In this document: in pieces, positions 38,545-43,347 of the stretch | Numbering within the stretch: the first letter of the stretch is position 1 | How the letters are laid out: every line of letters begins with the position of its first letter | From: a bacterium | GTDB taxonomy: Bacteria > Patescibacteriota > Minisyncoccia > Minisyncoccales > DAOWIS01 | Assembly: GCA_030640805.1 (NCBI GenBank) | Contig: DAOWIS010000007.1 | Span: forward strand, 1 to 46,211 | Direction: 5' to 3' | DNA length: 46,211 nucleotides | Program-made: the position numbers and the translations under genes | The notes under the pieces: generated by a model | Database searches by the model: none | What the model was told of the DNA's origin: nothing | Seen by the model: only the letters and a program-made list of their open reading frames with translations

Positions 38545-39810
38545 ATGAACGAGAGATTTGTAATTGAAGGGGGGAGACCATTAGAAGGCACAGTTGAGAT
38601 AAGCGGCTATAAGAACGCGGCTGGGCCGATTCTGGCTGCCACCTTACTTACTAACCAAAAGTGTATTATTGATAATTTGCCTCAAGTTGAAGATGTTTTT
38701 AACTGTCTGAAGGTCTTAAAGGGTATAGGAGTAAAGATAAATCAATTAGAAAAGAGAAAATTTGAAATTGAAGCCGGCGCTGAAGTCGATCCATCTAAAA
38801 TGAATCCTGATTTAATCGGCAGGACCAGAATGTCGGTTTTATTAATGGGTGCTTTACTTCCCCGGTTTAAAGATTTTAAAATTTCCCGACCCGGGGGAGA
38901 TAAAATCGGTCTGCGACCTATTACTACTCATCTTAACGCCTTAGAAAAATTAGGAGCCAAAATTAAAGAAGAAGGAGATTTTTATCATTTTAACTGCGCA
39001 AATTTAAAAGGAAGAGAGATTGTTTTAAAAGAATTTAGCGTAACAGCTACTGAGAATTTAATGTTGGCCTCAGTCTTAGCCCAGGGAAAAACTATTATTA
39101 AAGGAGCAGCGGCCGAGCCTCAAGTTCAAGATTTAGGTGGTATTTTAAAAGAAATGGGAGCAATAATAGAAGGAGTAGGCACTCATACTGTTGTTATAGA
39201 AGGAATTGAAGAACTGCAGGGAGTAGAGCATAAAGTTATTTCTGATCCTTTAGAGGCCGGTACATTTATAGTGGCTAGCGCGATTACTCCTGGCCAGGTA
39301 GAAATAAAAAATATTATTTTTGAACACTTAGATTTATTTTTAGATAAATTAGAAGAAATGGGAGTTGATTTCAAAAAAAAATCTGATTCTCTACTAGTTA
39401 GATTTTCTCCTAAACTAAAAGCCGTTCATGTTCAAGCTCTTCCTTACCCTGGTTTTCCTACTGATTTAGTGCCAATAATTGTTCCAGCCTTAACCCAGGC
39501 CGAGGGTCGAAGCTTAATCCACGATCCTTTATACGAAAATAGATTTAATTATGTTCAAGAATTAAGAAAGATGGGAGGAGACATAGAGATAGTGGATCCT
39601 CACCGAGTTTTTGTCTTTGGCAAAACTCCTCTTTTTGGAAGAGCTATCGAGAGTTGGGATATTAGAGCCGGGGCTTCCTTAATTATCGCTGGGCTCATAG
39701 CCAGAGGCAAAACAGTAATTAATAATGTCTATCAGATTGATAGGGGATATGAAAGAATTGAAGAAAAATTACAGAACCTTGGCGCAAGCATAGAGAGAAT
39801 AAAATCCTAA
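38545..39810 (+). CDS. murA: UDP-N-acetylglucosamine 1-carboxyvinyltransferase, Asp in place of catalytic Cys
   Basis: GGRPLEGTVEISGYKNAAGPILAATLL; SRPGGDKIGLRPITTHL. Confidence 0.95.
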   Translation: MNERFVIEGGRPLEGTVEISGYKNAAGPILAATLLTNQKCIIDNLPQVEDVFNCLKVLKGIGVKINQLEKRKFEIEAGAEVDPSKMNPDLIGRTRMSVLLMGALLPRFKDFKISRPGGDKIGLRPITTHLNALEKLGAKIKEEGDFYHFNCANLKGREIVLKEFSVTATENLMLASVLAQGKTIIKGAAAEPQVQDLGGILKEMGAIIEGVGTHTVVIEGIEELQGVEHKVISDPLEAGTFIVASAITPGQVEIKNIIFEHLDLFLDKLEEMGVDFKKKSDSLLVRFSPKLKAVHVQALPYPGFPTDLVPIIVPALTQAEGRSLIHDPLYENRFNYVQELRKMGGDIEIVDPHRVFVFGKTPLFGRAIESWDIRAGASLIIAGLIARGKTVINNVYQIDRGYERIEEKLQNLGASIERIKS

Positions 39811-39973
39811 ATCCTAATTTCTAATAAAATTCCCAATGACAAAATCCCAATGTCAAATGAATGATTAAATATCAAATGACAAAATAATAATTTAATCATT
39901 TAGTCATTGGTCATTGATTTGACATTTGTCATTAGACATTTGTCATTTTGCTAGGCATTAGACATTAGGATTT
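39809..39973. repeat. 165-bp foldback array between murA and mreB
   Basis: Outer arms aaatcctaat/attaggattt; internal caaatgacaaaa.../...tttgtcatttg words. Confidence 0.75.
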
Positions 39974-39985
39974 AGAAGATATTTT

Positions 39986-40987: not shown

Positions 40988-42217
40988 ATGATTATAGGCA
41001 TAAATGCTTCACCAGCTTTTAAATTTCCCAGAACCGGCGTAGAAGAATATACTTATCAGTTAATAAATCATTTAACTAAATTAAAAGAAGCCGAATCTCA
41101 TCGGTTTTTTTTGTATATTGATGTTCGCGAGGCAACCAAACTTCAAAGTACCGGCTGTCCAAATCCCAGCGAGATTTGGCAGCCTACGTTCTCGGCCTGT
41201 CGCCCCCGACTAAAGTCGGGAGACCATGCCGACAGGCCTGCGAAAGTTACTTTGAAAGTTTGTTGCCTCGCTTTAGATCTCCCGTCGAATTTCATTCTTA
41301 AACCCCTATCAGCTCCCTTTTTTTGGACTCAAGGCAGATTGGCTTGGCAGTTGAGAAAAGATAAACCTGATGTTTTTTTTAGTCCTGGCCATGTTCTTCC
41401 CAGATTTCATCCAGAAAATTCAGTAGTTACTATTCACGGTTTAGAGTTTGAGAGATGTCCTCAGTTTTATCCATCTTTTCATAGATTTTATCTTAAAAAA
41501 GTAACAAAATATGCAGTTTCTCGGGCCAAAAAAATTATTGCTGTCTCAAATAACACCAAAAAAGATTTAGTAGAATTATATAAAGTCCCGCCTAATAAAA
41601 TTATGGTAATTTACCACGGTTTAAATAAAGAAAGAAATGTTTCAGGTTTCAGGTTTCATGTTTCATGTTTCAAGAAGTATATTCTCTTTTTGGGGACTAA
41701 AGAAAAAAAGAAAAATATCTCAAATTTAATTAAGGCCTTTGAAATTTTAAAAGATAGATACAAAATCCCTCATAGATTAATTTTAGCAGGGAGAGAACCC
41801 AATAAAAGATTTTACAAGCCCGAGAAAATAGAAGATATTTTAAAGAAATCAAGATATAAAAAAGATATTATTAATTTAGATTTTGTTTCCGAAGATAAAA
41901 AGAAAGAACTCTTTCAAAAAGCCGCTCTTTTTATTTATCCTTCTTTTTATGAGGGCTTTGGAATGCCGATTTTAGAAGCTCAAATAGCTGGTACACCAGT
42001 AATTACCTCCAATATTTCTGCTTTGCCGGAAATAGCCGGCGACGGAGCAATGAAAATAACCCCTCATAATATTGAAGAAATAGCCCAAGCAATGTATAAA
42101 ATTATAAGCGACAAAAACACTGCCCAAAATTTAATAAACAAGGGCTACCAAAACATAAAAAAATTCTCCTGGCAAACCTGCGCCCAAGAAACCCTTAGCG
42201 TTTTACTGACACCTTGA
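40988..42217 (+). CDS. Glycosyltransferase family 1/4 with two repeat-derived inserts
   Basis: FPRTGVEEYTYQLI; FIYPSFYEGFGMPILEAQIAGTPVITSNISALPEIAGDGA. Confidence 0.85.
   Translation: MIIGINASPAFKFPRTGVEEYTYQLINHLTKLKEAESHRFFLYIDVREATKLQSTGCPNPSEIWQPTFSACRPRLKSGDHADRPAKVTLKVCCLALDLPSNFILKPLSAPFFWTQGRLAWQLRKDKPDVFFSPGHVLPRFHPENSVVTIHGLEFERCPQFYPSFHRFYLKKVTKYAVSRAKKIIAVSNNTKKDLVELYKVPPNKIMVIYHGLNKERNVSGFRFHVSCFKKYILFLGTKEKKKNISNLIKAFEILKDRYKIPHRLILAGREPNKRFYKPEKIEDILKKSRYKKDIINLDFVSEDKKKELFQKAALFIYPSFYEGFGMPILEAQIAGTPVITSNISALPEIAGDGAMKITPHNIEEIAQAMYKIISDKNTAQNLINKGYQNIKKFSWQTCAQETLSVLLTP
41127..41271. mobile_element. 145-bp foldback element inside glycosyltransferase CDS
   Basis: 24-bp near-perfect arms gcgaggcaaccaaacttcaaagta/tactttgaaagtttgttgcctcgc; internal hairpins. 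Confidence 0.75.
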
Positions 42218-43302: not shown

Positions 43303-43347
43303 AAAAAGGTTCAAATCCCAGCGATCGCCGCAATTTGAACCTTTTTT
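43303..43347. terminator. Bidirectional terminator-like palindrome
   Basis: aaaaaggttcaaat ... atttgaaccttttt. Confidence 0.6.

Follow-up and report, generated by a model that had tools for sequence, protein, structure and literature searches.

The window (the whole stretch of 46,211 nt that was analyzed) carries a gene for a GT4 family glycosyltransferase on the + strand (40988..42217; Pfam PF13439/PF00534), and a foldback element lies within this gene. The initial annotation had described a 145-bp foldback with 24-bp arms, enclosing two inner palindromes and read through by the ORF to add about 48 amino acids, and all of these points were borne out. The arms (41127-41150 and 41248-41271) are 24 nt long and 88% complementary, both inner palindromes are present, and the 409-aa frame stays open across the element, which would add approximately amino acids 47-95 relative to insert-free homologues. 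Folded as single-stranded DNA, the element reached -47.7 kcal/mol, compared to -19.7 +/- 2.6 kcal/mol for shuffled sequences (z -10.6, 0 of 200). The 92% identity to a second full copy in the same genome (G000:C3) runs on to CCTCGCTT, and therefore the unit spans approximately 41127-41273, its end probably being 41273 and not 41271. This whole unit (GCGAGG ... CCTCGCTT, 41127..41273, +) was delimited by the limits of homology between unrelated loci and scored 101 bits against family model R2.

Several parts were distinguished within the unit, all on the + strand. The outer stem, P1, is formed by a 5' arm (41127..41150) of variable sequence that is always complementary to the 3' arm (41248..41271). 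Hairpin P2 (41153..41184, GGCTGTCCAAAT ... ATTTGGCAGCC) carries a nearly invariant loop, CCCAGCGAG (41165..41173), whose GCG (41169-41171) takes part in a covarying loop contact. A conserved junction, GTTCTCGG (41188..41195), is followed by hairpin P3 (41194..41238) with its hypervariable apical stem, CCCGAC/GTCGGG at 41205-41220, which in the C3 copy is CTCGCC/GGCGAG, different and still complementary. Within P3 the conserved ACCATGCC (41223..41230) contains the TGC (41227-41229) that pairs with the GCG of the P2 loop. Other palindromes were also observed in the window. A single hairpin at 43303-43346 (AAAAAGGTTCAAAT-CCCAGCGA-TCGCCGCA-ATTTGAACCTTTTT) has a loop almost as in P2 and is a possible remnant or relative. 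Two more foldbacks, at 889-997 of the window and 871-1048 of L014, have ACCCCGCCCT/AGGGCGGGGT arms approximately 60-130 nt apart and perhaps form a second family, and an 84-nt A+T-rich inverted repeat lies between two genes at 39802-39975.

The initial annotation had proposed looking for an orthologue without the element. None of seven GT4 homologues and paralogues compared by blast and alignment, from this genome and its relatives, carried the insert; one of the seven, L245, is a fragment that stops short of the site. Sense frames were open across the element in 39-45% of cases over 134 copies of the family, compared to approximately 19% in mononucleotide shuffles. The open frame is thus by itself unremarkable, and read-through is possible without special adaptation because 39-45% of the sense frames of the family are open anyway. 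A function in stop-codon read-through was considered and rejected, as only 20 of 59 post-stop copies were open in the frame of the upstream gene, which does not exceed the general openness of the sequence. In the ileS gene of the same genome (L004 2937-5900, - strand) the peptide FAKASADK resembles another short palindromic coding insert, of a kind that we take to be common in such genomes.

The source genome comprises 721 kb in 49 contigs. The loop pattern CCCAGCGAG-N-GTTCTC was observed at seven places in this genome and at none in a reversed control, and a first covariance model was built from five of the seven. Covariance model searches found a total of 11 copies, including the full C3 copy, located between the recO and ileS genes. 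One copy lies in frame and sense within an O-antigen ligase, one in frame and antisense within a PMT-like membrane protein, and one at the 3' end of a second O-antigen ligase as a C-terminal insertion, and copies were also observed in the leaders of another GT4 gene, pth and recO. The GT4, ligase and PMT assignments are from Pfam, with the PMT match just under the cut-off. In-frame inserts of approximately 47-49 aa each were observed in the window glycosyltransferase, the C46 Wzy_C and the C16 PMT-like ORFs. The copies of this genome occur in both orientations with no sense bias, and the genes that they interrupt or adjoin include those for surface polysaccharides. A search for intergenic copies had been suggested by the initial annotation, which had also held that absence of the element elsewhere together with conservation of the insert in glycosyltransferase homologues would argue against it; the opposite was found, with 11 copies in the genome and insert-free homologues.

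Using a 48-sequence model (E<=1e-4), we detected the element in 100 of 247 genomes of the order, 149 of 384 genomes sampled from the class and 28 of 287 genomes sampled across the phylum, all of which are lower bounds because only approximately 8-13 candidates per genome were scored. Detected copies numbered approximately 1-13 per carrier genome, and the carriers include Ca. Nealsonbacteria Unc1 and Patescibacteria CR_Bin_053. By these model matches the predicted family is found throughout the phylum Patescibacteria. A pattern scan of GTDB genomes gave 57 hits, mostly by chance; of the loci re-tested with the model, none matched except Nealsonbacteria Unc1, CR_Bin_053 and L067, and no match was obtained among approximately 50 non-Patescibacteria loci that carry the loop pattern by chance. 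Rfam 15, searched with 16 loci and the window at gathering and relaxed thresholds, gave nothing relevant and nothing to E=1. The family was also without a match in the phage, plasmid and viral contigs searched, and no description of it was found in the open literature searched (subscription papers were outside the scope). In Ca. Nealsonbacteria Unc1 the foldback was observed as cargo within a 235-bp MITE with GGGTAAAGT/ACTTTACCC ends (L081 at approximately 1270-1505, L088 and L092-L094), the copies of which are 96-99% alike and flanked by 7-bp duplications (TATTATT, TATATTA, AATAATA, TTTAAAA).

Conservation of the fold was examined across 96 sequences. A total of 89.7% of cells were paired, compared to 58.7% in shuffled and 33-48% in slid controls, with a covariation of 0.757 compared to 0.200 and 0.08-0.15, respectively. 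Double changes were counted in 1330 cells and were seen at every pair of the main helices. The arms and stems vary almost freely with complementarity kept, while the loops CCCAGCGAG, TTCTCGG and ACCATGCC (core TCTC, ACCATG) are nearly invariant. In 13 sequences the central G of the P2 loop has become C and, jointly with it, a C of ACCATGC has become G; two further sequences have G-U, and none break the pair. As the partners of this contact lie in different hairpins, template switching and duplex DNA both fail to account for it and a folded single strand fits, the only explanation of the loop-loop covariation. The comparison establishes as the predicted core of the family a three-way junction in which P1 has variable arms, P2 carries loop CCCAGCGAG and P3 carries TTCTCGG/ACCATGCC, joined by the loop-loop contact. 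P1 was not recovered by RNAalifold from a MAFFT alignment, since its arms fail to align.

Copies within a genome were 91-97% alike at unrelated loci, and homology stopped 3-10 nt beyond the unit. Such pairs or sets include the window and C3; C7, C11 and C47; L149, L162 and L164 as well as L165 and L170 (G168); L187 and L203 (G061); and L139 and L194 (G033). The rpsG|fusA and rplC|rplD copies of one genome (L123 and L172) were 92% alike. For some orthologous sites, alignment between genomes covers the flanks without the element, while at others (L188/L207, L189/L197, L157/L175) the element was kept together with its flanks; such retention suits a useful element better than a selfish one. Judged from these alignments, the element is demonstrably mobile as a unit. 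The initial annotation had read it as a mobile element tolerated in a protein. This reading is partly supported, the mobility standing on the near-identical copies at unrelated loci and the tolerated peptide being a prediction. An in-gene reading leaves uncovered the phylum-wide family, the conserved single-strand fold and the usual home behind stop codons.

This usual home was evident outside the source genome, where copies between co-directional genes were oriented 83 sense to 9 antisense (p=4e-16). In the 75 copies with both distances, the upstream stop was a median 3 nt away and the next gene a median 45 nt away, and 52 of the 75 were within 7 nt of the upstream stop codon. Among 86 upstream proteins, the ribosomal proteins S7 (6), S9 (6), L3 (5) and S8 (3) recurred, as did RRF (4), a PheS-type class II tRNA synthetase (3) and Hsp70 (3), and EF-P was also observed. 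These counts include related genomes and are hence non-independent, and individual placements may be wrong because ORF calling relied on a simple script. On these predicted ORFs, the preferred site is established as a few bases behind a stop codon, usually that of a housekeeping gene. The strong sense bias suggests a transcript function, as it would be needless for a purely DNA-level element.

One explanation is accordingly a structured mRNA element that is part of the transcript of the upstream gene, folds behind its stop and modulates termination, the release of ribosomes or decay by 3' exonucleases, with the in-gene copies as strays. The orientation, the position close to the stop and far from the next gene, the recurrence of translation genes and Hsp70 upstream, the loop-loop covariation and the precedent of REPs near stop codons (PMC12306157) all speak for this. 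The composition of the stems, however, points to another polymer. G-U made up approximately 1-3% of standard pairs in the P1, P2, P3 and apical helices, compared to 9.7% in 13 tRNAs taken from these loci. A-C was about as frequent as G-U (49 G-U and 81 A-C in reliable helices), whereas the tRNAs had a G-U to A-C ratio of 27:0. A functional mRNA structure would be expected to permit G-U but not A-C in the strand that is transcribed, a pattern that the element does not show. Moreover, the strand opposite to the model, usually opposite to the gene, folded better in 127 of 134 copies with RNA parameters and in 124 of 134 with DNA parameters. Conserved TC/TC internal loops become GA/GA on that strand, and such tandem G-A mismatches are stable in both DNA and RNA. 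The source-genome copies, without sense bias and several of them in ORFs, also argue against an mRNA element, which we regard as the main rival reading but as rather unlikely. Because G-U is rare in the stems and A-C just as common, folded DNA is likelier than mRNA, and we favor folded single-stranded DNA as the object of selection.

The remaining explanations concern how such an element arose or moves. A MITE of the classical type, having terminal inverted repeats and a DDE transposase, is suggested by the GGGTAAAGT ends and 7-bp target duplications around the foldback cargo in Ca. Nealsonbacteria, but the surrounding MITE occurs only there; elsewhere the unit ends in GCTCGG/CCTCGCTT with no such repeats. 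No duplication was seen on inspection around the best three source-genome copies, and the P1 arms lack conservation from copy to copy, unlike transposase-bound repeats, making this explanation improbable. A SINE-like RNA, reverse-transcribed and mobilized in trans, would be in keeping with a conserved folded core and the lack of a clear target duplication; it is disfavored and still more improbable, as no reverse transcriptase (PF00078) was found in the source genome, where the element is active (2-3% of this genome is missing). Chance, or a local palindrome made within the gene by template switching during replication, could yield complementary arms, but is effectively refuted by the eleven genome copies and the phylum-wide family, together with the absence of model hits among the approximately 50 non-Patescibacteria loci, the z of -10.6 and covariation that links two different hairpins.

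We consider it fairly probable that the window element belongs, as a recent copy, to a family of non-autonomous, REP/RPE-like foldback transposons of approximately 145 bp. The element would move as folded single-stranded DNA, probably as the strand opposite to that of the covariance model and the gene, and a putative trans-acting enzyme would recognize the folded strand. Selection for the DNA fold, template switching during replication or both would keep the arms complementary. Copies may survive chiefly where harmless, in the narrow space that follows a stop codon, while recent activity in the source genome would have also put copies inside surface-polysaccharide genes, where the GC-rich, stop-poor sequence would let the ribosome read through.

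Y1 transposase genes were found in 67 of 100 carrier genomes compared to 56 of 147 other genomes (p=1e-5), and their association with the element is only statistical. No Y1 gene was found in 33 of the 100 carriers, some of these with 8-12 copies. The source genome has 3 Y1 genes, and the palindromes at their loci are others, none of the foldback family; neither target duplication, empty site nor autonomous partner was found for the foldback. At L013 (1148-1228, 2017-2051) and L015 (1134-1223), RAYT-like Y1 genes have the flanking palindromes TCTATTGATTTCCGAAATCAATAGA and CTATCGAAGTCGGACTTCAATAGT, and AAGTCGGA is common to CTATCGAAGTCGGACTTCAATAGT and the apical stems of some foldback copies.

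A foldback element and an intercistronic RNA function can hold together. We propose, tentatively and with some doubt, a phylum-wide class of mobile folded single-stranded DNA (alternatively, of a new functional RNA) for which targeting or selection favors the site immediately behind the stops of translation genes. If true, operon expression would be shaped by such an element in bacteria that are not easily cultured. The family is apparently large and undescribed, in a phylum about whose gene regulation and mobile elements little is known, and offers a testable conserved core. It also joins two old questions, that of palindromic repeats gathering behind stop codons and that of proteins tolerating palindromic inserts.

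Compared to known systems, the conserved loops, covarying stems and tertiary contact of the foldback resemble those of structured RNAs in Rfam, such as riboswitches and ribozymes, whereas its stems are wobble-poor and strand-symmetric and it has no match in Rfam 15. As in bacterial MITEs, it is a short, non-autonomous, mobile repeat, and one lineage carries it inside a MITE, but on inspection the foldback itself shows no conserved terminal inverted repeat and no target duplication. REPs are non-autonomous imperfect palindromes located 3' of coding regions, with many no more than 15 nt from a stop and some in ORFs (PMC12306157, PMC3733652). Those close to stop codons have been reported to lower translation (PMC12306157), and E. 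coli REPs that lie within 15 nt of one reportedly affect termination, ribosome release or decay. The foldback shares with the REP/BIME/REPIN and RAYT (Y1) systems its lack of autonomy and its palindromes near stops and within some ORFs. REPs, however, are high-copy single hairpins of 20-40 bp that bear GTAG or CGTC tags, while the foldback is a 145-nt three-way junction with GCTCGG/CCTCGCTT ends and no such tag on inspection, and a third of its carriers (33 of 100) had no detected Y1 gene. RPEs, of Rickettsia, are mobile palindromes of approximately 150 bp that a small genome carries in frame within protein genes unrelated to one another (PMC10969869). The foldback is likewise a 100-150-bp palindrome found in frame in protein genes (the window glycosyltransferase, C46 Wzy_C and C16 PMT-like), a likeness in length and setting. 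It differs from RPEs in that most copies lie outside genes, right behind stops, and in that its loops are conserved across the phylum and joined by a loop-loop contact.
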